This document shows positions 12,209 to 30,874 of a stretch of DNA of 64,000 nucleotides, piece after piece. The DNA is from Candidatus Zixiibacteriota bacterium (GTDB lineage Bacteria; Zixibacteria; MSB-5A5; GN15; FEB-12). The notes beneath the pieces were generated by a model. The model saw nothing but the letters and a program-made list of their open reading frames with translations. It was not told where the DNA came from and made no database searches. Each line of letters opens with the position of its first letter. The first letter of the stretch is position 1. The stretch lies in assembly GCA_022571985.1 (NCBI GenBank), contig JACZWU010000004.1, forward strand, positions 128,319-192,318, in the 5' to 3' direction. A program made the translations under genes and the position numbers.

Positions 12209-15200
12209 ATGAAAAAAGCTTTTCAAAAACTCTCACTTCAAATTTTAGCAGCTATGCTATTGGGATTTTCTCTTTCAATAGCGGCGCCAAACAATATAAC
12301 AGTTCTCAGCTCAAGCTCGGAAGAATTTCACTTCGTGATTCATTTTGGTGGCGGCCTGGACAGGCTCAATAAGATCGTAGGCCAGGATTCCCTTTTATAT
12401 TTAAGTCGAGCTGTTCAAATCGGCGTTCCCTATGGAGCGACCACCAGACTGGCAGCTGTTAATGGTACCGGACAAGTTTCTATAAGCAAGAATTCGCTGA
12501 GTTTCTCAAACCAGAATCGCACCGTAGCAGCTTCCCCTCTGGCCAGTCTTTCTGAAAACTGGGAGATGCGCCGCAGACAATTTGTGACAGTGGTTGTCTC
12601 GCCTGCCTCGGCTGGTTTTGTTTTCAATAATGTCGAAATCAAAGTTGTCTTTGACGGTGCCAGAGCTGAGATAGGAACTTCTCTTGATGATGATAAAATT
12701 TTTGAAAGAATTTTCGCAAGCTCAATAGCCAACTGGCAGGAATGTGGCAACTGGGCTGCTGCCCCGAGAATAGCGGCCAAGGCTGCTTTTATAGCTGCTC
12801 CGTTTTCTTATGCGGCCGACTGGTATAAAATAGAAATTAGCAGCAATTCAATTTATTCAGTTAGTTTTAGTGATCTTACTGCTGCCGGTTCTCTTTTGCA
12901 GTCGATAGCTACTGCTGATTTGTTTGTGTATTACGGAGGCGGCCAGCATGTTGACCCGCTGCTTCAAAATCCCCGCCCGACATTTGACCAGATAGCTATC
13001 GAGATTGAAGATAACAACAGCAACGGCAGCTTTGATGCCGGTGACAGAATTTTATTCTATGGTGAGTCAGTTAATCGCTGGGAGTATGACAGCGTCGGCG
13101 GAAGCTATGTCAAAAACACTTACACCGACAGAAATGTATACTGGTTAGCGGTCTCATCGTCTATTCCGGAATCACCTTTGAGAATTTCTACTGTCGATGT
13201 CACCCCCGATGGTACCGCCATCGATACCATGAACAGCTACCGGCGCTACTTGAGAGTTGAGCAGGATAATTTGCTGAGACGTTTCTCTGATGGCGCACCC
13301 GACGATTATTACAACTGGTACTGGGCAGCCAGCGACACTCTTACTCTGTTTGTGTCTACATCGGACCGGGTAGTGGGCCAGACAGTAAACATATTTTTGG
13401 GTGGTCGCACCTTTGATACTACCGGAATTCTGGATGCTGTCGGCTTTATGGATTTGACAGTGAATGGACAGGCGGCCTCGTCAAAGGTCTGCGATAAGTT
13501 TTTCTGCAGCTACCTGGCTGATAACCTTGTGGCCGGATTGAACCAATTTGATTTGACTCTCTGGGGTGCCATTATAGCTGCCCCGCATTTCGATTATCTG
13601 GAAATGGACTATGAAGCATTCCTGACTCCATCAGGAAATAAGATCGATGCTTCAGTAGGGTCTTACAATGGCAGAGTTCGTCTGGACATTATCGACAATT
13701 TTACCTCTCAGCCGGTGCTGTATAATCTTGATAACCCCGGCCAGCCACTTAAATTAACAGGTTTCGAAAGACAGAACGGACTTTTGTCTTTTGAAGCGAA
13801 CTTAGCGCCCGGCTCAGCCAACCGGTTTTTTGCAATTGGAACGGGGGAAATAAGACAGCCTCTGGCTTTCACCAAAGCTGCACCTGTCGACCTCTACGCC
13901 AGCAGCTCTCAGACCGATATGGTAATAATAACGACAGCCGGACTGGCTGCTGCCTTAAGCGGATATGTCGGCTATCGCAGCGCCCAGGGACATTCTATAA
14001 AAATTGTTACGGTCAGCGACATCATGGATAACTTTGCTTTTGGTCTGTACGACCCGACCGCTATAAGAGATTACTTAAAATATGCCTATGAAAATTACGC
14101 TTCACCTCCACCGGCGCATGTTTTGTTTGTCGGAGACGCCAACTATGATTTCACAGACAGACTGGGCACAGGCGTGCCGAATTTTGTACCCGCCTACCTT
14201 TTGCCATTTGATAAAACCTTGTCCGATGACAACTACGTTTATTTTGGCGAGTATGGTCTGATTGACAGCGACAGCAGCTATCTCTCCGGTGACAGAGGCT
14301 TTGATATGATTCCCTCCAGATGGCCGGTCAGGACATCTTCTGAAATTGCCAGTATTACTTCCAAGCTGATGGCCTACGAATCAGCGCAATCGTTCGGAAG
14401 CTGGCGGACGAATATAACGCTGGTTGCCGATGATGAGTTTGGCGCTTTTAATAACGAAACGTTTCATGTGACGCAGACGGAAAAACTGGGGAACGATCAT
14501 GTCCCTGATTTTATCAACAAAGAAAAACTTTATCTGTGGGACTATCCGCTGTTAAACGGGGAAAAGCCCGAAGTAAACAGCGCTGTTATAAATGCAGTTA
14601 ATCAGGGAACTTTGGTTTTGAACTATGTCGGCCACGGTAGTCCCGAGGTCTGGGCACACGAACATATATTAAAAAGAACTTCTGACCTGCCGCGTATGAC
14701 AAACTTCGACAGGCTGCCTCTTGTATATACAGCTTCCTGTGCGATAGGCTTCTTTGATGACCCCAAGCGTGAAGGCATGGCTGAAGATTTTATAGCCATG
14801 CAGGGCGGAGCTATCTCTGTAATTTCAGCTACCAGGCTGGTTTATTCTTCTGATAATGCAGCTTTTAACCGGCAGGTTTTTGATATTATGCTGTACGATG
14901 ATTCACTTACCATGAGTGAAGCTCTCTATGCTGCCAAACTCTTGAGACAATACGCCACAGTTAATCCGCCGTCACCGGTTTTGAATGACCGTAATTATAT
15001 GTATTTTGGTGATCCTTTTTTGCGTCTGGCCAATCCAACCAGTAATGTCACGGTTGATTCCATGCTGAATTCTCTGGAGGCTTTAAGAACCGCCAGAATA
15101 ACCGGTTCGGTAACAGACGCTGGCGGCAATCTCATTACAGCAGACGGGCAATTAACTATAACAGTCTTTGACTCTGAGAGAGATAAGACCTACCGGCTAC

Positions 15201-16093
15201 TGAACAGCGCCGGCAACGTGATACAGACAATAAATTACAAAGTTGCCGGTCCGACAATTTTTCGGGGAACGGCATCTATCACCGGCGGCAAATATGATTT
15301 TAGTTTTATTCCGCCGCTTGATATAGGTTATGGAGGCAGCGGTGCAAAAGTTTCCATGTATGCCGTACTCGGCGCCATTGATGCGGTAGGAATTATTGAT
15401 TCTATCACAGTTGCCACAACAGTAGCAAATTCCACTGACAGCACGGGACCAGATATCTCTCTTAGTTTCTCCGGTAAACCGTTTGCGCCCGGGGGTAATT
15501 TAGTTAGTCCGGGGGACATACTGGAAATAGAGCTCTCCGACCCCTCAGGCATAAACCTTGCCGGCGGATTGGGACACGGAATTTCAATTGAATTTGACGG
15601 CGAGGCAACTTCGGCAATCAATCTGACCGGCCTCTTCAATTTTGATCAGGATGATTTCACCACCGGCAGATTATTCTATGCACTGGACCAGCTCGAAGCG
15701 GGCGAGCATAGTATCAAATTAAAAGCCTGGGACAACGCCAATAATTCATCGTCCGTGTTATTTACCGTTGATATGGTCAATAGTTCATTTCTGGCGATTC
15801 AGCAACTTCTGAATTATCCCAATCCGATGACAGATAAAACGAGCTTCTCGTATTCATTGACTCAGACAGTAGAAAAATTAACGCTTGAGATATTTACTCT
15901 CTCTGGCCGCAAAATAAATAGTTTTCAGCGCTTTTCTCTGGCAGCCGCCTATTATGACGATATTGTCTGGGACGGGCGTGACGCCTTTGGTGACCGGGTA
16001 GCAACCGGTGTTTATATTTTCAAAGCAACTGCACTGCCGGCTACCGGCAAGGCGGTTGAAGAATTCGGAAAAATTGTAGTTATTAATCAATAA
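12209..16093 (+). CDS. porU: PorU-like C25 (gingipain-family) peptidase of type IX secretion
   Basis: A 1294-residue protein with a signal peptide (cut near SLSIA), a long beta-rich N-terminal part, a C25 peptidase domain from about residue 570, and a C-terminal sorting-type domain (NYPNPMTDKTSF to GVYIFKA). The catalytic dyad is visible: His809 in NYVGHGSPEVW and Cys844 in YTASCAIGFFDDP. The surrounding GGAISVISATRLVYSS and the later YMYFGDPFLRL match PorU more closely than ordinary gingipains. In Bacteroidota PorU is the cell-surface sortase that removes sorting domains from T9SS cargo and joins the cargo to surface lipopolysaccharide. The ATG at 12209 is preferred to an adjacent TTG. It is first in an eight-gene operon; the next gene is porV-like, the order known from Bacteroidota. 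Confidence 0.85.
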   Translation: MKKAFQKLSLQILAAMLLGFSLSIAAPNNITVLSSSSEEFHFVIHFGGGLDRLNKIVGQDSLLYLSRAVQIGVPYGATTRLAAVNGTGQVSISKNSLSFSNQNRTVAASPLASLSENWEMRRRQFVTVVVSPASAGFVFNNVEIKVVFDGARAEIGTSLDDDKIFERIFASSIANWQECGNWAAAPRIAAKAAFIAAPFSYAADWYKIEISSNSIYSVSFSDLTAAGSLLQSIATADLFVYYGGGQHVDPLLQNPRPTFDQIAIEIEDNNSNGSFDAGDRILFYGESVNRWEYDSVGGSYVKNTYTDRNVYWLAVSSSIPESPLRISTVDVTPDGTAIDTMNSYRRYLRVEQDNLLRRFSDGAPDDYYNWYWAASDTLTLFVSTSDRVVGQTVNIFLGGRTFDTTGILDAVGFMDLTVNGQAASSKVCDKFFCSYLADNLVAGLNQFDLTLWGAIIAAPHFDYLEMDYEAFLTPSGNKIDASVGSYNGRVRLDIIDNFTSQPVLYNLDNPGQPLKLTGFERQNGLLSFEANLAPGSANRFFAIGTGEIRQPLAFTKAAPVDLYASSSQTDMVIITTAGLAAALSGYVGYRSAQGHSIKIVTVSDIMDNFAFGLYDPTAIRDYLKYAYENYASPPPAHVLFVGDANYDFTDRLGTGVPNFVPAYLLPFDKTLSDDNYVYFGEYGLIDSDSSYLSGDRGFDMIPSRWPVRTSSEIASITSKLMAYESAQSFGSWRTNITLVADDEFGAFNNETFHVTQTEKLGNDHVPDFINKEKLYLWDYPLLNGEKPEVNSAVINAVNQGTLVLNYVGHGSPEVWAHEHILKRTSDLPRMTNFDRLPLVYTASCAIGFFDDPKREGMAEDFIAMQGGAISVISATRLVYSSDNAAFNRQVFDIMLYDDSLTMSEALYAAKLLRQYATVNPPSPVLNDRNYMYFGDPFLRLANPTSNVTVDSMLNSLEALRTARITGSVTDAGGNLITADGQLTITVFDSERDKTYRLLNSAGNVIQTINYKVAGPTIFRGTASITGGKYDFSFIPPLDIGYGGSGAKVSMYAVLGAIDAVGIIDSITVATTVANSTDSTGPDISLSFSGKPFAPGGNLVSPGDILEIELSDPSGINLAGGLGHGISIEFDGEATSAINLTGLFNFDQDDFTTGRLFYALDQLEAGEHSIKLKAWDNANNSSSVLFTVDMVNSSFLAIQQLLNYPNPMTDKTSFSYSLTQTVEKLTLEIFTLSGRKINSFQRFSLAAAYYDDIVWDGRDAFGDRVATGVYIFKATALPATGKAVEEFGKIVVINQ

Positions 16094-16105
16094 TTGGAGT
16101 ACTCG

Positions 16106-18934
16106 ATGAAACCACTCAAATTACTTCTTATGTTAACTTTGGCGATGACGTTTTGCCTGTCCCTGGTGATAGTGAGCGAAACCAAAGCCGAAATTTCAAA
16201 CGCAGCAGTACTGTTTCTGCGCATTGCTCCCGGTGCACGTCCGGCTGCTTTGGGTGAATCGTATGTGGCAATCGCCGATGATGCCACGGCCACCCATTGG
16301 AACCCGGCCGGGCTGGGAAGTTACCCTCTGGCCGATTCCTGGAAAGAAGCCAGAATACCGGCGCATTTGCGGCCGATCAAAGCTCTGGCTGCTCTTAAAA
16401 AAGAAGGCGGCGGCAGCGGTCACTTAGCCTATGACATCTGGGCTATTTCTCCCAAAGGAATGGTGCGCTACGATAACAAAAACTGGAATCTGGGCGAAAT
16501 CTTTTCAACCCGCACTGATGAAACACTAGTGTCCAAAGTGAGAAGCTATTTTAATATTTCCGAGGGCGAACAATTTGACCGGATCGTAAAGAAAGTAGCA
16601 GCAATAAATAGTAAGAAAACATTTGAGTACATGCAGAACCTTCATGATTCTGTGCTGGCCTCGGTGCCGGAAAGTTACAAGTTTCGTGAAAGAATGCAGA
16701 ATGACTTTGACAGCCTGTTGGCTGTCTATGACCGGCTTTTGATCAACTGGTCAAGAGTGAAAGAGATTGATGAGAATTTCAAAAAAGGCATGAAAGACGG
16801 CCAGCTATCTGAACAGGAACTGGATCGTCTGAGTTTTGCCATAGAGAAATCACGCAACAGGTTTATCCCCGAAGAGATAAGTATACCTTATTCGGCGGTA
16901 CTGGATGGAGAGCCGTTTGATATCGCGGCTTCGGCAGAACTTCTGCTGGTTGCCACCACCGCCAATATATATGCCTTTGATGGCCGTCGCTGGCGTCCGC
17001 TGCAAAAAGCCGACGATACTGCTGCCTTTGCGACTGTTAATACACTGTATGGCATGAACAGATACATTATGGTTGGTACAGATAAAGGATTGATGCAGTT
17101 TTCAGGTGGCAAACTTAAGCCGGTTGTCAAGAGTGACCAGCTGCCATCGGGCAATGTGACAGCAATCGGTGGAACAGATTTGAACGATATCTGGATTGTT
17201 GAAAATAATGATTTGTATCATTTTAATGGCGTTAACTGGCGCAACACCAGAGAATATACGGTGGTAATTGATGACACTCCTGAATCAATTGCCGAAAAGT
17301 TCGCTGTTTACGGCACTGCTTCTGAAAATGAAATGTACGTAGCAAAACTTATTAAAGCTAATCAGGGGCAGGCGGCTGAATCAAAAAAATCCGAAGAGCT
17401 TGGCGAACGAAAAGGTTTGCTGGAGCTTATGCAGGAGATGAACGCTCCCTTAGACAGTAATCAGACAGAAGAAGAGACAGTAGATTTCGCCGGTATTGCT
17501 GGTGCTGCTGGTGCTGCTGATGAACTTACCAGCGCAGGATCTGAAACTGTAGCTTCGACCGAAGATACATTTGTGGCAGCAGCGGCTGATGATGTTCAGG
17601 CCGAAGCCGTGCCAGGGTTTACTCTGAAGCCGGGTGAAAAGATTCGGGTACCTTATCTGGCTGAAGTTAAAGGAGATGTTAACGCCATTCTGGTAGAGCG
17701 TGGCAATATCTGGCTTGGTACTGAATACGGCGTAGTTCATTTTGATGGCGATAAATGGAATATGCCCGGCTACAGCAATAACAGGATAGACAGCGCTACA
17801 ACTATTACTGACTTGATTAAATCCAAATCTGCCCAGTCATCCTACATAATATCGGCTGCGAACTTTGCGGTCGTAAACGGCATAGATGGAGACATGGTAG
17901 CATCCGGTTCAATTGTTAAACTGCCTAAAAACCCGGCTGCTTCCCCCGTAAACGAAATTTGCCGTCGCGAAGGCAAAGTTTATTTTGCAACATCAAACGG
18001 GCTTATTGAGTATGATGGTGACAGATGGCGTCGCTCTAACTTAAGAGGCATGGACAGGTCCAACGCAATTGACATTCGCTCAATCGGAGACGAGCTCTGG
18101 GTTGCCAGCGATGATAAAATTGTTGTCAAAGCCAACGGCCAGAGTGATTTCTCGATGATGTATGTCAAATGGCTGCCGGAGCTGGCAGATGACCTGTACT
18201 ATATGTATGGTTCGGGTGTTTTTCCCGTGTCTAGCTGGGGGACTCTTGGTCTCGCTGCCGCATATATTTCGTATGGTAAATTTGTCAGGACCGGAGAGAC
18301 TAGTGCAAGTCCCTTAGGGGAGTTTGATTCATTTGATTTCGCAGTTTCAGCATCATTTGGTGCGCCGCTGACTCGAAAAATATCATTTGGGGTCACCGGC
18401 AAATTTATTTACTCAAAGCTTTCCGATCAGGGTGCCGGAATTGAACAGGGTAAAGGAACGTCAAGTGGCTTTGCCATTGACCTGGGGCTTATGTACCATA
18501 TGAATTCCAGGTTGACATTAGGATTAGCAGTCACCAATCTTGGTCCGCAAATGACCTATATTGATGCCGGCCAGTCTGATGATCTCCCCCGGAATTTGGG
18601 ATTTGGCTTCGCCTACAAGTTGGTGCAAAGTGATTATTATAGTTTTTTGATTACTGCGGAAATGAATAAATTGCTGGTAGGTGTTGATCTGGGAAACCTT
18701 GGAAAGGAAATGAAAGAGACTGTTTTCAACGGTGGCGCCGAATTTATGTATGCCGGAATTTTTGCGATAAGGGGCGGTTATATTTATGACCAGGAAGGTA
18801 ATGTCAAGAGTCTGACGCTCGGTGCAGGACTAAAGCCGCTTCCGAATACTAGTATTGACTTTTCATACATTCCCAGCAGCAGTACCTCGGTGTTGTCAAA
18901 TACACTTAGATATTCTTTCTCGATGGGACTGTAG
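16106..18934 (+). CDS. porV: PorV-like outer-membrane protein split by a beta-propeller domain
   Basis: A 942-residue protein with a signal peptide (cut near ETKA). Residues 25-70 carry the PorV/PorQ opening: FLRIAPGARPAALGESYVA, then ATATHWNPAGLG. The family normally continues directly into barrel strands, but here about 615 residues intervene. They hold repeated propeller blades (IWAISPKGMVRYDNKNW, IWLGTEYGVVHFDGDKW, VYFATSNGLIEYDGDRW), a helical segment near residues 150-250 and an Ala/Glu-rich linker near 450-505. Barrel strands resume at about residue 694 (SSWGTLGLAAAYISYGKF) and run to a C-terminal aromatic-rich strand. PorV shuttles T9SS cargo from SprA to PorU. ATG at 16106 follows TTGGAG; an in-frame TTG at 16094 is less likely. 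Confidence 0.8.
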   Translation: MKPLKLLLMLTLAMTFCLSLVIVSETKAEISNAAVLFLRIAPGARPAALGESYVAIADDATATHWNPAGLGSYPLADSWKEARIPAHLRPIKALAALKKEGGGSGHLAYDIWAISPKGMVRYDNKNWNLGEIFSTRTDETLVSKVRSYFNISEGEQFDRIVKKVAAINSKKTFEYMQNLHDSVLASVPESYKFRERMQNDFDSLLAVYDRLLINWSRVKEIDENFKKGMKDGQLSEQELDRLSFAIEKSRNRFIPEEISIPYSAVLDGEPFDIAASAELLLVATTANIYAFDGRRWRPLQKADDTAAFATVNTLYGMNRYIMVGTDKGLMQFSGGKLKPVVKSDQLPSGNVTAIGGTDLNDIWIVENNDLYHFNGVNWRNTREYTVVIDDTPESIAEKFAVYGTASENEMYVAKLIKANQGQAAESKKSEELGERKGLLELMQEMNAPLDSNQTEEETVDFAGIAGAAGAADELTSAGSETVASTEDTFVAAAADDVQAEAVPGFTLKPGEKIRVPYLAEVKGDVNAILVERGNIWLGTEYGVVHFDGDKWNMPGYSNNRIDSATTITDLIKSKSAQSSYIISAANFAVVNGIDGDMVASGSIVKLPKNPAASPVNEICRREGKVYFATSNGLIEYDGDRWRRSNLRGMDRSNAIDIRSIGDELWVASDDKIVVKANGQSDFSMMYVKWLPELADDLYYMYGSGVFPVSSWGTLGLAAAYISYGKFVRTGETSASPLGEFDSFDFAVSASFGAPLTRKISFGVTGKFIYSKLSDQGAGIEQGKGTSSGFAIDLGLMYHMNSRLTLGLAVTNLGPQMTYIDAGQSDDLPRNLGFGFAYKLVQSDYYSFLITAEMNKLLVGVDLGNLGKEMKETVFNGGAEFMYAGIFAIRGGYIYDQEGNVKSLTLGAGLKPLPNTSIDFSYIPSSSTSVLSNTLRYSFSMGL

Positions 18935-18955
18935 GAATTGTTGACCGAGGCATGA

Positions 18956-21900
18956 ATTATTAGACGATTAGAAATCAGCATTATTTTTATTGTAATACTT
19001 TCTCTGTGTGCTGTGGCTTCTGGCTCAGACACCGGGAAAGTTTTGCAGTTTAAAAAAGAAAGCGTTGAAACATCTGGTGAAAACAAGGTTCACCGCCCGT
19101 GTCTCACGCCCGACGCAGAATATATTATAGACCTGGGGCTGAAACGAAAGAACAAATGGTCGTTGCCCGAACATGCCCTGGCCGCAAACTTTCTGGATAC
19201 TATCAACATCCTGGTGCTCAGGTTTAATTTTCAGTATGAAACCGTTGACGATCCTAACACCACCGGCAGAGGCAGGATGATTCTGGATGACCCGTTTGCA
19301 AATGCAGCCGACTCGGCAGCATATTATGACCTGGTCGGTCATCTGGCAGACCCGCCGCCCCGTGATTCGTTATATTTTGACGCCCATCTGAGAGCGCTGC
19401 AGAAATATTATGAAACAGTTTCCGAAGGAAAAATTACTCTTTCCTGGGATATTTTCCCGCCCGCCAGAGACAGCATCTATACTTTGCCGCAACCAATGAA
19501 TTATTACGGAAGATGTTCTTTTGATTCTGTCATAACCGGGCTTGAGAATTATTTTATAGACTGCATTCAGCTGGCCGATACGGTCAGCCCGGAGATAGTT
19601 TTCACTGACTATCAGTCTATATTCTTATTTCATGCCGGCTCTGACCGCCAGAACGATATCGGCTTTCCTGAGACATGCAGCGACCTGTTTTCGGGTTTCA
19701 TTTCGTTTGGCTCAACCATACCGGTTGACAATGACACAGCTTTTGTTCAGAACGCTCTGATGCTGCCCGAAACGGCCAGTCAGGACAATCGAGGTACGGC
19801 GCTAAACGCCTTAATTGCCCACGAATTTGGTCATCAGCTCGGTTTAGTAGATTTATATGACACCAGAACATTTCTGACTCAGGTTGGTGACTTTGCGCTG
19901 ATGGATAACAATGGTTTCGGAACCGGTCTAGATTTTGGATTCACGGTTGGTCAGATTTTTGGCGCGATTCCGTTATATCCGATGGCCTGGTCCCGCGCAC
20001 ATCTGGGGTTTATCGAGGTAGTCGATTACAGGCAGAATGCCGATTTAAGAATAGTCGCAGCCGAAGTGATCTCAAACGGTATCAAGATCGCCCGCATTCC
20101 AATTTCTGAAAACGAATACTACCTGTTAGAAAACAGGCTGGTCGACACCGATGGCAAAGAAACAGCTCTTCTGGCAGACTCAGTAACTTCGGTTTTCCAA
20201 TACCCAATTGATTTGCAGAAAAATTTTACCGGCGAATATGACAATCTCATGCCCGGTTCCGGTCTTTTGATTTTCCATGTCGATGAAGGCGTCGCCGGTC
20301 TTGATTATGATAATGACGGCCAGAATAACTTCGATGACAATGACCTTCAGCGCGACCCCAACCGAAGATTTATCAGGCTGGTCGAAGCCGACGGCATTGT
20401 CAATTTTGGCGGTTATTATCGGGCAGGCTATGGGCGCGAGGAAGATATGTACCGCGATGACCGCAATAATTCCTTTACACCCAACACCAATCCGCCATCA
20501 ATAGATAACTCCGGCAATAACAGCCGGGTGCGGCTTACTGAAATAAGTCGAGATTCGATGACCACAGCACAGGGCTTGATTTACTATGACTCAGTCATCA
20601 CGGCTAAATTAGAAATCGATGGCAGGAGTTCGGGTTTTCCCGTACGTGCGGGTTATCCGGTCTTTGGCTTAAACCCGATTGTTGATGACATTGACCGCGA
20701 CGGCAGACCGGAATTGATTGTAGCATCAGGATCTCACCTTTCTGTCATTACACTTGATGGCAAAAACTTTCTTAGAGAATATACAGGTTGTGATTGTCCG
20801 ATCTTTGAAGACACCGCATTCTCCTCAATTTCAACGGGGATACCGCACATAATGCCGCTGTATGCGTCTGTGGAGGTTTTTGATGATACGATTACCGCTA
20901 GTCCCGTTACAGGTGACTTTGGAATGGTTGATTCCAACAAGTTCATTGCCATTGGCGTTAGAGACGATCGTTCAACTCATTACACTGCTGTATATAGACT
21001 TGACGATACGGACGAGGACGGAATTGCAACGGCAAGGTTTAACCAAACACTGGCACAGGGAGTACCGATTGCACTGTCATTCGGCTCCGCATTATGGACC
21101 CTAACAGATAGAGGCGCGATACTCCGTAAGATATCTTTTACAGCAAATCATAAAATTATGGCGGTGTTTCAGAATTCCGAATATCATGGCATAGCTCAGT
21201 TGAACGACGCCTTGCTGCTTTTGGCTGGCGACAGCATCGAAACCAAACTCTACTATGTAAATGGTGATTCCCTTGCCGACTCGGTCTTTTTGGGTGACCA
21301 CTATTCTTTTGGGCCGGTGATTGCAGATTTTGACCGTGACGGCCTGCCGGAACTGGCGGCGTTTACTGAAGATGGCTACGGTATTCTCTTGACCATTGAT
21401 ACGACAGTTGTGCCGTTTGATTACCAGCTGCTGACATCGGTCAACACCGGTTTTAGATTTACATCAAATCCGATCGCAGGAGATGTCAATCTTGACGGCT
21501 TTCCTGACATCATTATCGGCGGACAAAATGCAATTTACGCCTTTGACCGCGAACTCAAATTATTAACTGATTTCCCGTATGAGCCATCGGACAGATTTCC
21601 GACAGACGAAGTCATAGCAGCGCCGATAATGGCAAATATCGAAGCAGGCGGACAGTCCGAAATCATCTTCCCAACTTTGACAGGCAATATTTATTCTTTT
21701 GCAGAGCAGGAATCATTCGGCTTTCCGCTATCCGCGGGCGAAATAGGCGCCGGCTCACCGGTTTATGTTTCAGACGGAATGACCGGAAAACTTGGCTATT
21801 TAGGAGCCGATGGCTGGTTTTATCTTTGGGATGTCGCCGCCGACAGCACTAAAAATTTCTGGCCAATGGGCGGCAGCGACCCCGAAGGCACTTATGTTTT

Positions 21901-22225
21901 CGATCAGACCATCCTGCCTTCTCCGAAGCCGCAGTCGGCCAGCCTGCCAAAGGAACGATTTTATAATTACCCTAATCCGGTTCTTGATGGACAAACCACT
22001 ATCAGGTATTATCTGGGGCAGGATGCCAGCTCGGTCTCCTTTAGAATATTTGATCTCTCGGGAGTCGAAGTTGCCGCGATGAGCGGAAGCGTGACCGGCG
22101 GCATTGATAATGAAATAATCTGGAACTGCAGCAATGTAACACCTGGTGTCTATCGCTGTGTTATGGAAGTAGATTTCGGCAGTTCTACAGCAACGGCCTT
22201 TACAGATATAGCAGTATTGCGCTAA
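18956..22225 (+). CDS. M6-type metalloprotease with FG-GAP repeats and T9SS sorting domain
   Basis: A protein of about 1089 residues. The zinc motif HEFGHQLGLVDLYD (HExxHxxGxxD, near residue 288) marks an immune-inhibitor-A-like secreted peptidase. Then come FG-GAP/integrin-type repeats (DIDRDGRPELIV, DFDRDGLPELAA, DVNLDGFPDIII) and a C-terminal sorting domain (NYPNPVLDGQTTIRYYLG to GVYRCVMEV). It is a likely T9SS cargo. The start is odd: the signal peptide IIRRLEISIIFIVILSLCAV is in frame, but between the stop at 18953 and the GTG at 19013, which would cut the peptide, there is no ATG, GTG or TTG. The first codons are ATT ATT, 5-8 bases after GAGG. Either AUU initiation or a one-base frameshift after the ATG at 18952 explains this. 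Confidence 0.85.
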   Translation: MIRRLEISIIFIVILSLCAVASGSDTGKVLQFKKESVETSGENKVHRPCLTPDAEYIIDLGLKRKNKWSLPEHALAANFLDTINILVLRFNFQYETVDDPNTTGRGRMILDDPFANAADSAAYYDLVGHLADPPPRDSLYFDAHLRALQKYYETVSEGKITLSWDIFPPARDSIYTLPQPMNYYGRCSFDSVITGLENYFIDCIQLADTVSPEIVFTDYQSIFLFHAGSDRQNDIGFPETCSDLFSGFISFGSTIPVDNDTAFVQNALMLPETASQDNRGTALNALIAHEFGHQLGLVDLYDTRTFLTQVGDFALMDNNGFGTGLDFGFTVGQIFGAIPLYPMAWSRAHLGFIEVVDYRQNADLRIVAAEVISNGIKIARIPISENEYYLLENRLVDTDGKETALLADSVTSVFQYPIDLQKNFTGEYDNLMPGSGLLIFHVDEGVAGLDYDNDGQNNFDDNDLQRDPNRRFIRLVEADGIVNFGGYYRAGYGREEDMYRDDRNNSFTPNTNPPSIDNSGNNSRVRLTEISRDSMTTAQGLIYYDSVITAKLEIDGRSSGFPVRAGYPVFGLNPIVDDIDRDGRPELIVASGSHLSVITLDGKNFLREYTGCDCPIFEDTAFSSISTGIPHIMPLYASVEVFDDTITASPVTGDFGMVDSNKFIAIGVRDDRSTHYTAVYRLDDTDEDGIATARFNQTLAQGVPIALSFGSALWTLTDRGAILRKISFTANHKIMAVFQNSEYHGIAQLNDALLLLAGDSIETKLYYVNGDSLADSVFLGDHYSFGPVIADFDRDGLPELAAFTEDGYGILLTIDTTVVPFDYQLLTSVNTGFRFTSNPIAGDVNLDGFPDIIIGGQNAIYAFDRELKLLTDFPYEPSDRFPTDEVIAAPIMANIEAGGQSEIIFPTLTGNIYSFAEQESFGFPLSAGEIGAGSPVYVSDGMTGKLGYLGADGWFYLWDVAADSTKNFWPMGGSDPEGTYVFDQTILPSPKPQSASLPKERFYNYPNPVLDGQTTIRYYLGQDASSVSFRIFDLSGVEVAAMSGSVTGGIDNEIIWNCSNVTPGVYRCVMEVDFGSSTATAFTDIAVLR

Positions 22226-22247
22226 CATTTAGTAAATGAGAAGTTGA

Positions 22248-23162
22248 ATGAATAAAATAAAACACATTTTGCTCTCCGTTATAAGCGGCTGCTTGTTACT
22301 GACTACAGCCGCCAGTGCCAATGCGAATAAATCAGAGCAAGAGAGTTTTGATCAGGAGCTGCAGAAAATTAAATACAATTATGCTCTGGCGCTATCTGAC
22401 GACAAAACTTTGCTTTTTGCACAGTCAGAATTCGACTCAGATGACAATAGTTCCCTAAGCGTTACACGGAGCGGCTACAAGTCACCCTCAAAGGCATTCC
22501 TCTTATCACTGGCTCTGCCTGGTCTGGGGCAATATTACTCCGGCAGCAAAATTAAAGCGGCAACGTTTGTCGGCGTAGAGGCTTTTGCCTGGCTGATGCG
22601 TGGTAAGTGGAATTCTGAAGGAACAGACCTAACTGCCGAATTTGAACAGTTTAACCGTGACCACTGGTCAGAGATGCGATACGAAGAATATCTCTTTATA
22701 GTTTATGGGGAAACAAATGACGACAACGTGAGCGCCCAGGAAGTCAGCCACCATCTGCCGGATACGCGCACTCAGCAGTATTATGAAATGACCGGCAAGT
22801 ATGACCAGTTTTCCTGGGGCTGGGATGACGCTGACTTAAACGGACTGGGTTACGCCGACTGGGACTCAACTTTTCCTACAGCTGTAGTGGGTGGCGCTAC
22901 TGTACCAAATTCAACCAGAAGGCTTTTGTACGAAACAATGCGCAATGAAGCCAATAAGAAATTTAGCAGAGCCAATAAGATGCTGATGATGGTTTTTGCG
23001 AATCACCTGATTTCAGCAGTGGAAGCATTTCTTTCGACCAAGAAAAGAAATGAAAGCAATAGCTTTGACCCGGAATTCTCAAGGCTAAAAGTTGAAACCA
23101 ACATCAAGTCCACCTATGGCTGGAGAGACACACCCTATCTGAGCGTAGGCTATAAGTTTTAA
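22248..23162 (+). CDS. DUF5683-like membrane/envelope protein, first tandem copy
   Basis: A 304-residue protein with a signal peptide (cut near ASANA). Around residues 80-115 it has the DUF5683-like patch AFLLSLALPGLGQYYSGSKI followed by a hydrophobic helix (FVGVEAFAWLMRG). A long charged segment and a second hydrophobic helix (MLMMVFANHLISAVEAFLS) follow. DUF5683-type proteins occur widely in Bacteroidota-like envelopes; their role is not known to me. The next gene encodes a protein of the same plan, so this is a tandem duplication. Operon spacing is 22 bases from the protease gene and 2 bases to the second copy. Confidence 0.75.
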   Translation: MNKIKHILLSVISGCLLLTTAASANANKSEQESFDQELQKIKYNYALALSDDKTLLFAQSEFDSDDNSSLSVTRSGYKSPSKAFLLSLALPGLGQYYSGSKIKAATFVGVEAFAWLMRGKWNSEGTDLTAEFEQFNRDHWSEMRYEEYLFIVYGETNDDNVSAQEVSHHLPDTRTQQYYEMTGKYDQFSWGWDDADLNGLGYADWDSTFPTAVVGGATVPNSTRRLLYETMRNEANKKFSRANKMLMMVFANHLISAVEAFLSTKKRNESNSFDPEFSRLKVETNIKSTYGWRDTPYLSVGYKF

Positions 23163-23164
23163 TC

Positions 23165-23974
23165 ATGCAGACTAAGTTAAGCACATTCGTAATTTTTATA
23201 ACTATTCTGGCGTCAGTATTTTCAAGTTCAACGGCAGAAGCAGTTGAACTAAAACAAACGCCTCTTCAGGATCAAATGGCCAGCAACATTAATAGCTTCT
23301 ATAACTTACAAACATTTGCAGGTCTTGATGAATTTGACAATGCAATTAATTCACAGCGATCAACTGACAATGCCGAGAAAAAATCGATTGTTAAAGCTGC
23401 CCTGTATTCGGCACTGCTGCCGGGATTGGGCGAATACTATGTCGGCAATCGCCGCAAAGCCAGAGTGTTTTTTGCAGTAGAGGCTGTTACCTGGATTGGT
23501 TATCTGTCTTATAAAGTTTACGGTAACTGGAAAGAAGACGACCTGATTCGTTTCGCGAGTGAGTACGCCAATGCTAATCTTGAGGGAAAGAGCCAGGAGT
23601 TTCAGGATTGGGTTGGCTTCTACGATGATATTGACCAGTACAATTCACTCGGTCGGGTTCAGGATCAGGACAGGCCGTATCTGGTAGACAATTCCGAAAA
23701 CCACTGGCGCTGGCAGTCCGACAACGACAAAGCCAATTATCGCGATTTGAAAAACAGCAGTCGCGAGGCATTCCGCCGCGCTAATTTCCTGGTCGGACTG
23801 GCTGTAGTCAACAGGATTGTATCTATCATAGACGCAGTCCGTGATGCAAAAAGGTCCAACAGCGAAATAAAAGACGCCGACTTTTCTCTGGTTGGCAAGA
23901 TCAGGTACCGCTTAGAAATTCATCCGTTCAGTAACAGCAAGCCCGTCAGTTTTGCTCTGGTCGCCCACTTTTAG
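23165..23974 (+). CDS. DUF5683-like membrane/envelope protein, second tandem copy
   Basis: A 269-residue protein built like the previous one: signal peptide (cut near STAEA), then AALYSALLPGLGEYYVGNRR, a hydrophobic helix (FFAVEAVTWIGYLSYKVYG), a charged WKEDD-type linker, and a second hydrophobic helix (FLVGLAVVNRIVSIIDAV). Shared residues (SxxLPGLGxYYxG, then VEAxxW) show homology, but the loops differ, so the duplication is old. Function unknown; two copies inside a T9SS-like operon suggest an envelope assembly role, by inference only. Confidence 0.75.
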   Translation: MQTKLSTFVIFITILASVFSSSTAEAVELKQTPLQDQMASNINSFYNLQTFAGLDEFDNAINSQRSTDNAEKKSIVKAALYSALLPGLGEYYVGNRRKARVFFAVEAVTWIGYLSYKVYGNWKEDDLIRFASEYANANLEGKSQEFQDWVGFYDDIDQYNSLGRVQDQDRPYLVDNSENHWRWQSDNDKANYRDLKNSSREAFRRANFLVGLAVVNRIVSIIDAVRDAKRSNSEIKDADFSLVGKIRYRLEIHPFSNSKPVSFALVAHF

Positions 23975-23985
23975 GAGCCCAAGCA

Positions 23986-24951
23986 GTGTATCGCTCTACT
24001 TTAGGCATTCTCTTAATAACTGCTCTGTCAATTACCTCCTGTAAAAAAACGCCTGCCCTCGCCGAGGAATCAAGTTCAGCTGAAGTTTCAAATAACATTT
24101 TTCTCTTTGTAGAAAGAGAGATAAACGGTCTTATTTTAGGTCAGAAGTTTAATGAACCAGCAGGTATTACGATTGGCAGAAACGGCACTGTCTTTGTAGT
24201 AGACAGAGGCAACAACCGTGTTATCCGTTTCGATTCAGAAATGAATCCGGAAAAACAAATCGGTGGTTACGGACACGGCACCGAGCTATTTAACCGACCG
24301 TCATTTGCAGTAATGGACAACGGCTTAAACCTGTTTGTGGCTGATGAAGGCAACCGCCGGGTGGCCAGGTTTGATGCACGGCTGAATTTTGTTGATGAAA
24401 TCAGGTTCGAAGACGAAGAAGATCCTTTCAAGTTTGGTTATCCTTCCGGGATCGGTATTACCTCGTACGGCGAAATATGGATTGCTGACAACGAAAAAAA
24501 CAGACTGTGCGTCTTCAATAATATCAGCAAATTTGACAGATTCATAGGTGATTTTGGTTCGTCCGGCGGGCAGATGTTAAGCCCTGAAAAAATTGTCAAA
24601 AGCGATGCCGGCGATTTTTTTGTATGTGACGCCGGACACAGCAGAATTGTTGTCTATAACGAATTCGGCTCGCACCTACGCACTTTCGCCTTTAATCAGA
24701 TAAATTATCCAATTTCTATCGCCATAGCAGCTGATATGCTCTGGGTTGTTGATGGCGGAGATTCCAAACTGTTTGCTGTGTCAAAAAATGGCAAAGTTTT
24801 GTCTTCCTTCGGGCCGAATCTTCCCGGGACAAATCTGTCACTAAAACAGCCGTCCGATATCGCCTTACTTGAAGATGACAGGCTGGTGATTGTCGACACC
24901 GGCAACAACCGGCTTTTGATTTGTCGAATCGTCAAAGGGGAAGCGAAATAG
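23986..24951 (+). CDS. NHL-repeat lipoprotein
   Basis: A 321-residue protein starting at GTG, with AGGAG twelve bases upstream. The N-terminus has a lipobox (SITSC near residue 19). The rest is a six-bladed NHL-type propeller: repeated blocks such as GITIGRNGTVFVVDRGNNRV, LFVADEGNRRVARFD, IWIADNEKNRLCVF, FFVCDAGHSRIVVYN and LVIVDTGNNRLLI. NHL propellers bind proteins, peptides or glycans and are not normally enzymes by themselves. As a lipoprotein it should sit in the outer membrane, next to the barrels encoded by the neighbouring genes. Confidence 0.85.
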   Translation: MYRSTLGILLITALSITSCKKTPALAEESSSAEVSNNIFLFVEREINGLILGQKFNEPAGITIGRNGTVFVVDRGNNRVIRFDSEMNPEKQIGGYGHGTELFNRPSFAVMDNGLNLFVADEGNRRVARFDARLNFVDEIRFEDEEDPFKFGYPSGIGITSYGEIWIADNEKNRLCVFNNISKFDRFIGDFGSSGGQMLSPEKIVKSDAGDFFVCDAGHSRIVVYNEFGSHLRTFAFNQINYPISIAIAADMLWVVDGGDSKLFAVSKNGKVLSSFGPNLPGTNLSLKQPSDIALLEDDRLVIVDTGNNRLLICRIVKGEAK

Positions 24952-24957
24952 AATGCT

Positions 24958-27900
24958 ATGCGGTTCAAATTTTGCTACAGCCCCGGATTTAGAAATCTGC
25001 TAAATAATTCAGCACTTTCTCTAATTATCTTCTGCTCAATTTTAATACCTGTTTCGTCTTTTGCGGCTCAGATTGAAAGAATCGTTACGGGTCTGGCCGG
25101 GCAATCAGGTAGTTTTATAACAGGGCTGATATTTTTTGAATCTGACTCTCTTTTTTTAAACGGCAGGCTACTTACCAGAAACGAAGATTATAAAGTTAAC
25201 AGACAAACCCGGAGTCTGGAGCTTTTGAAAATCCAACTTGGTTCTGCCGACACTTTAGTCATCAGATACAGGCAGGCTCCGCTCTGGCTGGCGAAATCAT
25301 TCGGTGTGCAGCCGCCGGCGATACAGCCGTCTCTCTCAAAAGCAAAACCGGTGAATCTGTTTAACAATCGCCGCGTTTCTTCGGCTGCGAAATTAAGTGA
25401 TATTAAAATCTCCGGCGCCAAGACTTTCCGGTTCTCTACCCGGTCGGCCGGGGTTTCAGAATTTGGACAATCGCTGGATCTAAATATAGAAGGGGACTTA
25501 ACAGAAGACCTAAAATTAACAGGGTCCATATCTGACCGCGGCTTTAATCCATCGTACGGCACAGCCAACAGCCGCCTTGAGGAACTTGATAAGATAAATC
25601 TAAGGCTTGAGTCCCGGTCTTTTCTGGCGCAGATAGGCGATATACAAATCAGCCGCGGACTTAATAAATCTTTGACAATTAACAAACAGCTTTCGGGTGT
25701 AGCGGCAGACATAAAGACTGGAAACGTAAGTTTTAGTGCCGTTGCCGGTCGGCCCAAAGGAAGATTTCGGACTGAAAAATTTAACGGACTTGACGGTGTT
25801 CAGGGTCCGTATCAAATTGGAGTAGGCCAGAGTGTTTCATCGATTGTGCCAAACTCAGAACATATCTGGCTGGACGGACGAAAACTAAGCAGGGGTACGG
25901 ACAAAGATTACAGCATGGATTATGCCGCCGGAAGAATTACATTCTCTGTCAAAAATCAGATAGACAGTCGCAGCAGAATAGAAATTGACTATGAGCCGCT
26001 GCTGACAGCCTATAAAAGCGAACTTTTCAGCGCCGCCAGCAACTACCAATATGGCGACTCTGTTTTTAATTTTGCCGTCGAGTGGTATCGCGAAGGTGAC
26101 TCCAAAAACCAGCCTCGAACAGGAGAACTGTCAAACGCTGACAGACAACTGCTTTCTGCGGTTGGTGACAATATTGAAAACGCCTTTAGGTCTGGGGTCA
26201 AATTAGACAGCGCCGGAAGTTACCTGCTGATAACAGATAGTTTACCGGACAGCCTCTACCAATTCACGGGCCAGGGCAACGGCGACTATAACATTTCATT
26301 CTCATTCGTTGGCGCAGGAAAAGGTGATTATCTGTTTGTCGGGGGAGAGCAGTACCAATATGCCGGCCGCGGTAACGGCGAGTATCTGCCGCTGGTAAAA
26401 CTGGCCGCACCGGAGCAAAAAAATTATTACTCTGCCAGACTGGGACTGCAAAACAGAATCGTCGGCGAAGTGCAGGCAGAAATAAATGTTTCACGATATG
26501 ACAAAAATCTGTTTTCTGCGCTTGACGATGCTGACAACGAAGGACTGCTGGCGAATCTTCGCTCCAGAAAAACTTTTAACTGGAACGGTCAGGAAAACGA
26601 TTTTTCTGTTACTGCTCGCTTCAAAGAAGCGGCCTATTCTTCAGACTCAAGAATCAATGTCGCCGATTTTGGCCGTCATTACTTATTGCCGAGAGCGTTT
26701 AAGGCTGTCAGCGATGAAAAATTGATAGAAACAAGTGCAACGCTCTCGCCGTTTAATTTTTTGAAACTGTCACCATCATTTGGCAGGCTGAATTACTATA
26801 ACAATTTCTCTGCCAACAGAATCTCAGCCAGAACTGATATTAAATTCAACAATCTGTTATCGGGGAGCTTTCTGATAAGAGCTGCAGATTCAAAGCTTAG
26901 TGACAGCATAAACTCCGCCGGTCATTCACAGAGCTATATCAGCAGCTTGGAAATTCCTATAATGCGAAAACTGAAAATTCAGGCAAGATATGAATATGAC
27001 AGCAGAGAGAACGATTACAATGGCGCCCCGCAAGGCTTAAAATACGACCGATACTCTGCCACGTTAGTTAACAACAAAGAAAAAATAACTGTTGAGCATT
27101 ATACTGAAGATTCTTTAACTAATAGCTGGTCGCAGCTGCTGACCAGAAACCGTGTGATGGGGTCATCCGGGCGGACAATCGGACGCCTCAATTATAATAT
27201 TTATCTTGGTTATCAGTGGCTCTCCCGAGAAAACGCCAGAGAGGAGTCGTTTTTGTCAAGAGCCGACTGGCGCTACACCAATAATAAAAAGAGACTAAGC
27301 ATAAGTTCTTCTTACACACTTTCTGAAGAAACCAGAAACGCCCGGGGCATCAGTTATCTGGAAGTTGCACCCGGCCAGGGCAAGTATATCTTCGAAAATG
27401 GCCGCTACCTGCCCGACCCGGACGGTAACTTTATTCAGACAGAAGAAATCCTTTCTGAAAAATCGAAAGTTCGCCGGGGCGAAAAAAGTTTTCACTTAAG
27501 CAAGAGCTGGTCGTTTGCTCAAATTCAGCTAAACAGCGTAGTCGAAGAAGAATTGTTAGAAAATGGCCAGCGCTCGTTTTGGTGGTTCCTGCCTTTTTAC
27601 TCTGACGACGCTCAGCCTTACTTAGTATATAACCGTCGCTACAGCAGTGACATTCGCCTGATACAAATAAAAGGCGGCCATGCCATAAATATCAGCCTCA
27701 AACAAAGAATCGAAATTAGAAATATCGCCGGTATTGGCAGAATCAGGCGGGATTTTGACGGGACACTTTCATTAAAGCAAGCCTTGAAGGATTTGTTTTT
27801 CGTCGAGGAAATAAAATTGTTCCGTAGCAACCGCGATAATTATTTCATAGGCAGTGGAGATATAGACGGCTTCAAAACTGCGCTGACACTGCGCAAGTTG

Positions 27901-28251
27901 GCTTCTTCAAATGAATATGCGTTAGGTCTGTCATTTCGTAAGGCACAGTCATCCATTAATGAAAAATCAAAAATCTTCTCAATTGAAGCAAAAACTAAAA
28001 TCCGCATGATGAAAAAAGGAGAGATAAGGACTTCGCTGGAACTTTATTCCCAGAGCCTTGATAACGTAAACCTGGCGCCGTCGTACCAGCTGACCGGCAA
28101 TAAATTCGGCAGCAGAGGAATTTTGTGGTCGGCCGGGTTCAACTATGGCATCAAGAAAGATATGCGTATTAATCTGCGGCTGAGCGGGCGGCACTCAGAT
28201 GAAACTACTGCGCGTATAACCGGACGAACCGAAGTGGTGGCACAATTCTGA
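24958..28251 (+). CDS. SprA-related large outer-membrane beta-barrel protein
   Basis: A 1097-residue protein with a signal peptide (cut near SSFA/AQIER), almost entirely alternating beta strands in its C-terminal two thirds. It carries two copies of a module LxGRxLxxxxDYxxxxxxGxIxF: LNGRLLTRNEDYKVN near residue 64 and LDGRKLSRGTDKDYSMDYAA near residue 303. The same module (LNGRLLKKGEDYNINYDFG) occurs in SprA encoded at 50458, so I read this as a shorter SprA relative. SprA forms the T9SS translocon pore; a second, smaller family member would be a paralogous pore or a surface assembly protein. Its stop overlaps the Omp85 gene by one base. Confidence 0.7.
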   Translation: MRFKFCYSPGFRNLLNNSALSLIIFCSILIPVSSFAAQIERIVTGLAGQSGSFITGLIFFESDSLFLNGRLLTRNEDYKVNRQTRSLELLKIQLGSADTLVIRYRQAPLWLAKSFGVQPPAIQPSLSKAKPVNLFNNRRVSSAAKLSDIKISGAKTFRFSTRSAGVSEFGQSLDLNIEGDLTEDLKLTGSISDRGFNPSYGTANSRLEELDKINLRLESRSFLAQIGDIQISRGLNKSLTINKQLSGVAADIKTGNVSFSAVAGRPKGRFRTEKFNGLDGVQGPYQIGVGQSVSSIVPNSEHIWLDGRKLSRGTDKDYSMDYAAGRITFSVKNQIDSRSRIEIDYEPLLTAYKSELFSAASNYQYGDSVFNFAVEWYREGDSKNQPRTGELSNADRQLLSAVGDNIENAFRSGVKLDSAGSYLLITDSLPDSLYQFTGQGNGDYNISFSFVGAGKGDYLFVGGEQYQYAGRGNGEYLPLVKLAAPEQKNYYSARLGLQNRIVGEVQAEINVSRYDKNLFSALDDADNEGLLANLRSRKTFNWNGQENDFSVTARFKEAAYSSDSRINVADFGRHYLLPRAFKAVSDEKLIETSATLSPFNFLKLSPSFGRLNYYNNFSANRISARTDIKFNNLLSGSFLIRAADSKLSDSINSAGHSQSYISSLEIPIMRKLKIQARYEYDSRENDYNGAPQGLKYDRYSATLVNNKEKITVEHYTEDSLTNSWSQLLTRNRVMGSSGRTIGRLNYNIYLGYQWLSRENAREESFLSRADWRYTNNKKRLSISSSYTLSEETRNARGISYLEVAPGQGKYIFENGRYLPDPDGNFIQTEEILSEKSKVRRGEKSFHLSKSWSFAQIQLNSVVEEELLENGQRSFWWFLPFYSDDAQPYLVYNRRYSSDIRLIQIKGGHAINISLKQRIEIRNIAGIGRIRRDFDGTLSLKQALKDLFFVEEIKLFRSNRDNYFIGSGDIDGFKTALTLRKLASSNEYALGLSFRKAQSSINEKSKIFSIEAKTKIRMMKKGEIRTSLELYSQSLDNVNLAPSYQLTGNKFGSRGILWSAGFNYGIKKDMRINLRLSGRHSDETTARITGRTEVVAQF

Positions 28252-29891
28252 TGTTTGCACGACTTATTATCATAGCCTGCGCTCTGGCTGCACTTATAGT
28301 TCAACCGCTGCAGTCGGTCGAACTGCTTTTCGAAGGCAGAATACCTGAAAACAGCGGAGAAATAAAAAAGGCAGTCAAGAGATCGCCTGACCCATCGCTG
28401 GCGCTGCTGGATTCAATTGTAACTGACCTCATCGCTCGCGGCTATTTAGACGCTGCTATGGAAATAAAAAGCGGCGGCTTAATTATTCGGGCAGGCAGCA
28501 AATATTTTGTCTCAAAGATTATCTTAAATGGCGATTCGATCAAGCAAACAGATGACATGTATATTCCGTTTGACAGCGCCTCTGTCAGCCTGGCCATCAA
28601 TCAACGATTACAAAACTTTCGAGACCAGGGCTATCTTTATGTTTCAGCCGAAACAAAAAATATTTCAATTCAAGACAGCCTTGTGTCGCTTGAACTGAAT
28701 ATTAATATGGGGCCGCTGGTTGAAATCGGACAGCAAATCTACGCCGGACTGACCAGAACCGACCCCGGTATGATTTCGAAATACGTTCCCGATCTGACCG
28801 GCAAAAAGGTTACGCCGGCGCTTATTAAGCAAGCTGAAACAGCAGCGCGCAACGTGCCTTTTGTGACTTTCAAACCGCCTTTAAAATTAGCTCCACGTCC
28901 GGGCTATACCGTATCCGATATTGTCTTTGACTTTTTAGAGCAAACTCCGGTCAGTTTCAAAGGCGCCGCCGGAATTGCCGGAGAAGATAACAATGCTGTC
29001 TGGTCTTTTGATCTGGCCTTAAACAATTTACTCGGTTCAGGGAAAAGAGTGGAAATCGTTTCTGAAAAAAGAGAGAGCGGCCGCAATTTGCTGCGCGTTC
29101 AGTATAGCCAGCCTTCGTTTATAGCCGGCACCGGAGAAGTGAAGTTTACAGTTTTGACCAGAAACTACCGGGATGAATTCTACGAGTTTGATATAGCGGC
29201 CGGCTATGCTACCCGGCTAAACAGAAGTTTCACTACCGGTCTTAAACTGGGCTGGAAATCAGTTATTCCCGAAACCGGTAATCTGAACTACAGAGCCGTC
29301 AGCGGACAGTTTGCGATTTCAAAGCAGACTAACCCCGTTTCTTTCAATCCCTCACACGGTTTCGCCGTGAACTGGTCAATTGATTTCAGATTCAGAAAAT
29401 ACACGTCTGAAAATCTGCCAGAATTTATCAAGCAGAGATCGTTTTACGAAACGCGCAACAATCTTTCGGTCTCGCTTTTTCAAAAGTTTGCAGGAGCTTT
29501 TATCTGGCACGGCAGAATCCAATATCAGGGGCTGGAAACCAAAGAAGATCTGCCTCCTCTCTCAGAACTAATTTTAATAGGCGGACCGGGGACGCTTCGC
29601 GGTTACCGCAATGAACAGTTTGCAGCAATCAGGACTGTTTATGGAACGATCGAGCCGAGGCTTAGATTTGGCTCAGGATTCGGCTTTATTTTTTACGATG
29701 CCGCCTATCTGAACAACAGGCTGATAAACCAAAGCGAAAAAATCGAGACTGTTGAAGATTTCAAATGGAGCTACGGGCTTGGTCTTGGTGTCGGCAATAA
29801 TCTGCGCTCGCTTTTGCTGTCGCTGGGATGGGAGCCTCAGGCCGGATTCGACCAGCCGCGACTATCCATAGAACTCTCTTCGGACATTTGA
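28251..29891 (+). CDS. Omp85-superfamily (BamA/TamA-like) outer-membrane protein
   Basis: A 546-residue protein with a signal peptide. The N-terminal 180 residues contain two or three POTRA-like modules (for example AINQRLQNFRDQGYLYVSAE). A 16-stranded barrel region of about 330 residues follows, holding the Omp85 hallmark GGPGTLRGYRNEQF near residue 443, whose RGY loop sits inside the barrel. It is shorter than BamA (which has five POTRAs), so it is closer to TamA or two-partner-secretion types. Such proteins insert or export other outer-membrane proteins. Being last in the surface operon and overlapping the SprA-like gene, it may assemble that barrel. Confidence 0.85.
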   Translation: MFARLIIIACALAALIVQPLQSVELLFEGRIPENSGEIKKAVKRSPDPSLALLDSIVTDLIARGYLDAAMEIKSGGLIIRAGSKYFVSKIILNGDSIKQTDDMYIPFDSASVSLAINQRLQNFRDQGYLYVSAETKNISIQDSLVSLELNINMGPLVEIGQQIYAGLTRTDPGMISKYVPDLTGKKVTPALIKQAETAARNVPFVTFKPPLKLAPRPGYTVSDIVFDFLEQTPVSFKGAAGIAGEDNNAVWSFDLALNNLLGSGKRVEIVSEKRESGRNLLRVQYSQPSFIAGTGEVKFTVLTRNYRDEFYEFDIAAGYATRLNRSFTTGLKLGWKSVIPETGNLNYRAVSGQFAISKQTNPVSFNPSHGFAVNWSIDFRFRKYTSENLPEFIKQRSFYETRNNLSVSLFQKFAGAFIWHGRIQYQGLETKEDLPPLSELILIGGPGTLRGYRNEQFAAIRTVYGTIEPRLRFGSGFGFIFYDAAYLNNRLINQSEKIETVEDFKWSYGLGLGVGNNLRSLLLSLGWEPQAGFDQPRLSIELSSDI

Positions 29892-29929: not shown

Positions 29930-30778
29930 ATGTGGGCCTTGCTGGATTATCTGAAACTTATTCGCGCAATAAACTGCATCATTGCAGCAGCGGCAGTCTT
30001 AATCGGCGCTTATTTCACCTGGACGTCAACAGTCTATTATGCGCCGGTAATGTCCGCAATCGCGGCTTTTCTGGTTTGTGCCGCAGGCAATGTTGTAAAT
30101 GATATTGTGGATATTGATATTGACCTGATCAACCAGCCCCAACGCGTTTTACCTGCCGGAGATATTTCAAAAAGTGCAGCCACCAGACTGGCCATAGCTC
30201 TGACAATACTGGCTGTCATCGTGGCGCTGGCAATCAACTGGCAGGTGCTGACCGCGGTTATTCTGGCAATAGCTCTGCTGGCACTTTACAATTTTAAGGC
30301 TAAAAAGATTCCCATATTTGGAAACTTGATAATCGCGCTACTGGGAGCCCTCACTTTTCTAACAGGCGGGCTGGCAGTAGACGAGTCACTGACTTTTGCC
30401 TTGCCCGGGCCAGTTATACCGGCGCTTTTTGCCTTTTTCTTTCATCTGGCCAGAGAGATATTAAAGGACGTGGAGGATATCGAAGGTGACCGGCGGGTGG
30501 GCATCAAAACGTTTCCCCAGGTAGTGGGAGAATCCAGAGCGATACTGGCGGTGCTTGTTCTGTTTTTCATAATGGTCGTGCTAACATTCATACCTGTCCT
30601 GGCCGGCTGGTTTGGCAGAGCTTACGAAATACTGGCTATTTACATAATTGACCTGCCTTTGCTGTTGCTTTTGATTTTCATCTGGGGCAACCCCAGCCGA
30701 AAAATGCTGAGAATCGGCTCACTGGGTCTAAAAGCCGGCATGCTGCTGGGGATTGTGGCATTAATAGTGGCTCGCTGA
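29930..30778 (+). CDS. UbiA-family prenyltransferase
   Basis: A 282-residue membrane protein with about eight hydrophobic segments. The two aspartate motifs that bind Mg and prenyl diphosphate are present: NDIVDIDIDLINQPQRVLP near residues 58-76 and DVEDIEGDRRVGIKTFP near 181-197. The family moves a prenyl chain onto an aromatic ring or onto glycerol phosphate. The short loop and NQPQRVLP variant resemble geranylgeranylglyceryl-phosphate synthase-type members (archaeal lipid-like or ether-lipid routes) as much as menaquinone enzymes, so the acceptor is open. It has its own promoter and sits between the surface operon and the bat operon. Confidence 0.85.
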   Translation: MWALLDYLKLIRAINCIIAAAAVLIGAYFTWTSTVYYAPVMSAIAAFLVCAAGNVVNDIVDIDIDLINQPQRVLPAGDISKSAATRLAIALTILAVIVALAINWQVLTAVILAIALLALYNFKAKKIPIFGNLIIALLGALTFLTGGLAVDESLTFALPGPVIPALFAFFFHLAREILKDVEDIEGDRRVGIKTFPQVVGESRAILAVLVLFFIMVVLTFIPVLAGWFGRAYEILAIYIIDLPLLLLLIFIWGNPSRKMLRIGSLGLKAGMLLGIVALIVAR

Positions 30779-30834
30779 AAATAGTGAAACCTATGCCGCG
30801 CAATCGAGTATAAGCCTTTTATAATACTGATTTG

Positions 30835-30863: not shown

Positions 30864-30874
30864 CAGAATCGCTA

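Follow-up and report, generated by a model that had tools for sequence, protein, structure and literature searches.

A conserved T9SS operon of Candidatus Zixiibacteriota with a predicted SprA-related barrel and a linked Omp85 protein

Eight tandem genes on the plus strand of a Candidatus Zixiibacteriota genome of 2.93 Mb (positions 12209-29891 of the 64,000-nucleotide stretch analysed here, hereafter the window) appear to form the T9SS sortase and attachment operon of the phylum, into which an accessory module is built, made up of a pore of the SprA family and a dedicated assembly factor. We give this reading a probability of roughly 0.55. Judging from the Bacteroidota homologues, cargo bearing a sorting domain would exit through the single main SprA and pass to PorV, and PorU would cleave the cargo tail and anchor the cargo. 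The M6 protease would be a resident cargo, whereas a propeller and LysM-like segment of PorV, placed in the periplasm, may tether the carrier or the translocon to peptidoglycan. The Omp85 protein would fold and insert an outsized barrel, here called SprL, which most likely serves cargo bound to the carrier, or the anchor of that cargo, as an accessory conduit or docking pore in the outer membrane and would be dispensable for the core T9SS. Contacts of SprL with PorV and with Omp85 are putative.

Gene content and conservation of the operon

All eight open reading frames are present in the order of the preliminary description, which had placed them within 0-22 bases of each other; no gap exceeds 22 bases, provided that the M6 gene begins at an ATT codon at 18956. 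The first gene encodes PorU (12209-16093, ATG start), a C25 sortase with a C-terminal sorting-type domain that scores 628 bits against NF033707 (cut-off 420). Next comes a PorV carrier with an inserted domain block (16106-18934 from an ATG, with a TTG at 16094; 231 bits against the PorV/PorQ family, cut-off 90), followed by an M6-type metalloprotease (18956-22225) that contains FG-GAP repeats and ends in a sorting domain. Two DUF5683-like proteins occupy conserved positions, the first (22248-23162) at 26.9 bits against PF18935 (cut-off 26.7) and the second (23165-23974) just under that cut-off at 26.3 bits. An NHL-propeller lipoprotein (23986-24951; PF01436, 106 bits) carries the lipobox ITSC at its N-terminus. 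SprL, a predicted giant outer-membrane barrel of 1097 residues with no family assigned (24958-28251), is described from profile comparison and a structural model, and the last gene encodes a short BamA/TamA-like Omp85 protein of 546 residues with POTRAs and a barrel (28251-29891; PF01103, 36 bits). The conserved downstream neighbour, a UbiA-family prenyltransferase (29930-30778, plus strand; PF01040), is only a putative member. The main SprA translocon lies further along the same strand (50458-56640; TIGR04189, 549 bits). From their spacing and synteny, the eight genes are probably co-transcribed; a promoter scan returned matches at the level of shuffled sequence and was uninformative. Beyond the operon, the genes after UbiA are of the BatD, MoxR and von Willebrand types (aerotolerance-like); this stretch (29930-36803) is syntenic with the operon whether or not SprL and Omp85 are present.

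The gap of 21 bases before the M6 gene results from taking the non-standard ATT start at 18956. No other start would take in the signal peptide, which is in frame with it, and a congener has an ATT at the same position too; among standard starts a GTG at 19013 comes first. The preliminary description had named the M6 protease as candidate cargo on account of its sorting domain. Consistent with this, the protein ends in a type-A-like sorting tail (TIGR04183, a weak match of 19.6 bits, below cut-off), and its HExxH motif is intact, with His 270, Glu 271, Gly 273 and His 274 invariant in 20 sequences. The protease model TIGR03296 likewise matches below cut-off (64 bits). An assignment to the 'inactivated' M6 family NF052323 was rejected, as the HEFGH motif is intact, HExxH is invariant and the score is 292 bits against a cut-off of 600. 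The M6 protease is a probable resident T9SS cargo.

The comparison of gene order across related genomes, which the preliminary description had proposed, bears out the arrangement; the named relatives are Candidatus Zixiibacteriota MAGs. The order PorU-PorV-M6-DUF5683a-DUF5683b-NHL-SprL-Omp85-UbiA is identical in all 18 uninterrupted 20-kb loci, drawn from three families, and it is preserved in further families of the phylum that are more distantly related; the arrangement is not a matter of chance. An apparent break in one genome (G029) was rejected as an assembly gap with N runs. The contig concerned, a single-contig MAG, probably has a misjoin inside the M6 gene, and it carries a second SprA copy elsewhere in a shorter open frame. 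Outside the phylum, three Fermentibacterota-type genomes encode PorU, PorV, M6, a DUF5683-like protein, two further genes, SprL and Omp85 in that order. Their PorV is 349-382 residues long and lacks the insert, and in one of them (L167) the gene just before SprL reads as propeller-like. In at least two phyla SprL has an NHL-propeller gene as a neighbour. SprL relatives are also present in Rhodothermales and WOR-3, with no adjacent Omp85; in two WOR-3 genomes M6 and a DUF5683-like gene are encoded close to SprL but on the other strand, and SprL stands apart from any Omp85. The operon is probably ancient.

SprL and its Omp85 partner

SprL is a distant relative of SprA, with kinship proven for one domain only. 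The NCBIfam SprA model matches 23 of 31 SprL family members (best E 2.7e-9) in one region, about positions 573-687 of 2319. TIGR04189 gives no match to the window protein at E ≤ 1 and scores 13-26 bits on the tabulated members, below the family cut-off of 200. Profile-profile alignment with hhalign locates a SprA domain of about 90 residues twice in SprL, at residues 43-110 (E 1.5e-7) and 293-382 (E 4.3e-9), and the second match, in which the domain copy itself spans about 293-346, continues into the two barrel strands that follow. By the same method a collinear N-terminal match (143-276) is weak and suggestive (E 0.026), and the main barrel has no significant alignment with SprA. It is because the remainder beyond the shared domain does not align significantly that we call the relationship distant. 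Neither a Pfam scan of SprL nor a search of PDB sequences with its profile gave a match.

SprA forms a capped barrel of 36 strands with a lateral opening and passes cargo on to PorV (PMC10994853). The AlphaFold model of SprL (pLDDT 81.7, pTM 0.72) has a comparable barrel: its DSSP strings contain 39 strand segments of at least eight residues, 38 of which alternate cleanly across the membrane, and as two of them are short the predicted count is about 36-38 strands. The chain ends in a barrel strand. Given a periplasmic C terminus, strand parity predicts that the SprA-like domain (271-345 in the model) and residues 387-486 lie outside the cell, at the position of the SprA cap. Within this predicted extracellular region, at about residues 433-478, there is a repeated and strongly conserved G-x-G-x-G-(D/E)-Y motif. 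Foldseek returned mostly generic barrels, SprA among them, with TM-scores of 0.20-0.28, which leaves global fold identity with SprA unsupported. SprL shares with SprA/Sov (6h3i, 8gl6) the domain of about 90 residues, a predicted giant single-chain barrel and extracellular domains between strands. It differs in having half the length (1097 versus 2060 residues), no significant main-barrel match and scores below the family cut-off, and in sharing its genome with a true SprA. The earlier claim of a second, smaller SprA relative is upheld by the shared domain and the similar modelled barrel, as a structural relation proven for one domain.

SprL and Omp85 occur together. Among 83 genomes at least 90% complete, SprL was found in 71. 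A genome search detected Omp85 in 65 of the 71 and gene order revealed it in four more, giving at least 69; none of the 12 genomes without SprL has it. On the genome-search counts, a one-sided Fisher test without correction for phylogeny gives p = 1.9e-10. In 62 of the 65 genomes, which are all the cases with both genes on the same contig, Omp85 lies directly downstream of SprL on the same strand; in the other three the two genes are on different contigs. Of the six genomes that seemed to lack Omp85, four from one family have a diverged copy next to SprL, and in another the SprL locus is cut by a contig end. In some lineages PorU-PorV-M6-DUF5683-DUF5683 runs directly into UbiA, with SprL and Omp85 absent together. 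One such family (f3) keeps the NHL gene, and part of another (f4) is without it. Conversely, one genome has NHL-SprL-Omp85-UbiA with no PorU upstream. SprL and Omp85, often with the NHL gene, are one separable module.

The profile of the window Omp85 matches the POTRA-barrel region of BamA in the PDB and TamA weakly, and the protein has both POTRAs and an Omp85 barrel. It resembles BamA/TamA in these respects and differs in being short, in always standing beside SprL in Zixiibacteriota and in being absent where SprL is absent; the housekeeping BamA is a separate homologue of about 840 residues. The Omp85 protein is dedicated, as the preliminary description had it, and is predicted to be the assembly factor for SprL.

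SprL might instead be no conduit at all: within the sortase complex it could serve as a barrel for attachment or for delivery of a glycolipid, or it could be a scaffold on which the NHL lipoprotein is displayed, and in either case Omp85 would be its insertase. The place of SprL in a sortase operon, the NHL gene at its side across phyla and the survival of the core T9SS genes after its loss would all agree with such a role. However, SprL contains no glycolipid-related domain, and the specificity of its match to the SprA domain is a sign of kinship with the translocon family; we regard this alternative as less likely.

The inserted domains of PorV

The preliminary description had PorV fused to a propeller. 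The propeller is present, but it is inserted within PorV and not fused to an end: the block takes up residues ~75-680, with the NPAGL plug of the N terminus before it and barrel strand 1 after it, and the barrel itself (residues 685-945) has 14 strands in the model (pLDDT 76). Foldseek gives the PorV of 8gl6/6h3i as the best match (E 4e-17). The insert models as a seven-bladed propeller of the Reg_prop type, together with a helical domain (145-251), a LysM-like segment (~388-448) and a disordered stretch (450-510). LysM was detected in 14 of 27 PorV members (best E 1.1e-5), the window PorV itself being under the Pfam cut-off. By strand parity the insert is predicted to lie on the periplasmic side.

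PorE of P. gingivalis is composed of a propeller and a peptidoglycan-binding domain (PMC7192894), and because of this pairing a wall tether is the preferred analogy. The PorV insert likewise would combine, in the periplasm, a propeller with a domain of peptidoglycan-binding type, and it fits a PorE-like tether better than PorZ; PorE differs in being a separate lipoprotein with an OmpA_C domain, whereas the insert is LysM-like and lies inside PorV. Binding of the insert to peptidoglycan is thus a prediction from the model and this analogy.

We first considered that PorV carries a fused PorZ, which would offer the anchor lipid to PorU at the cell exterior. The propeller is of the Reg_prop type found in PorZ, and the PorZ_N model matches three of the 27 members. 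Against this, strand parity places the insert in the periplasm, a LysM-like segment is present and a separate PorZ-like protein of about 761 residues exists; PorZ has two surface propellers and a sorting tail, whereas here a single propeller lies inside PorV. A PorZ-PorV fusion therefore seems unlikely. The separate PorZ-like protein (G000:C15:85330-87483) matches NF052228 below cut-off, and proteins resembling it occur in several relatives. Near its gene, at C15:80299, there is a C25-type match.

A single T9SS and its proposed accessory module

The features of a T9SS are found together here: a PorU with C25 catalytic residues, a PorV-family carrier, SprA in the genome and cargo with a sorting tail. 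In addition to M6, many other proteins across the source genome match sorting tails. The PorU in this operon is the only one in the source genome above the NF033707 cut-off, and no more than one was found in any of 30 genomes. Its catalytic motifs GHG and ASC/GSC are retained in all 27 members. SprA is present in every one of the 18 genomes examined for it, among them genomes that lack SprL, and the lineages that lack SprL and Omp85 keep PorU, PorV, M6 and one SprA. With a single PorU, and with the core kept where SprL is missing, the PorU/PorV half of the operon is therefore expected to serve the main T9SS. No match to the PorL/PorM (GldL/GldM) motor was found in 10-12 genomes, in a search that ran without a working positive control.

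Two further alternatives concern the relation of the module to the T9SS. Omp85 could be an exporter (two-partner-like or TamA-like) with SprL as its substrate or partner, unrelated to the T9SS and next to it through inherited synteny only. This would account for the strict SprL-Omp85 pairing, and the non-T9SS neighbours UbiA and BatD are syntenic too; but the order from PorU-PorV-M6-DUF5683 to SprL-Omp85 recurs in Fermentibacterota-type genomes, which suggests a functional link, and SprL ends in a barrel strand, so that we consider an exporter improbable. The preliminary proposal of a self-contained line parallel to the main SprA, in which SprL replaces SprA for the cargo of the operon with its own PorV, PorU and Omp85, could draw on the SprA-related domain, the similar barrel size and the PorV, PorU and tailed cargo of the same operon, but it was rejected as improbable, because PorU is single-copy and PorU, the rest of the core and the main SprA persist without SprL, as does M6, which accordingly does not need SprL.

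The preferred reading, a sortase and attachment operon with a built-in accessory module, can be set against the Bacteroidota attachment module (PorU-PorV with PorQ-PorZ). The two agree in the PorU catalytic residues, the PorV-family carrier, the tailed cargo and the adjacency of porU and porV. The Zixiibacteriota operon differs in lying outside Bacteroidota, in the propeller/LysM block inserted into PorV and in the addition of M6, two DUF5683-like genes, the NHL lipoprotein, SprL and Omp85. The T9SS is called Bacteroidota-specific in reviews (PMC7463736, PMC10202324), and SprA is called FCB-specific in a 2025 paper (PMC12611786). In the open-access literature we found neither a description of a Zixiibacteriota T9SS nor any paper on a second relative of SprA accompanied by its own Omp85. 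The PorU-PorV pair is already known; the SprL-Omp85 module and the PorV insert make this a new T9SS variant.

If PorU and PorV are linked across the phylum to another giant barrel related to SprA and to a dedicated Omp85, this would show that SprA-type barrels have diversified, and SprL and its Omp85 would offer a natural example of an assembly factor that serves a single outsized client. The insert in PorV is relevant to the coupling between the cell wall and the carrier or translocon. It is possible, as a tentative extension, that SprL and Omp85 form a second kind of SprA-superfamily conduit with its own insertase and that PorV is a wall-tethered station and no free shuttle, in a T9SS built unlike that of Bacteroidota. 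Genome-wide, twelve PorV/PorQ-family matches were found in G000, and some of these are two-barrel fusions in one frame, for example a protein of 666 residues at C1:590666-592480.
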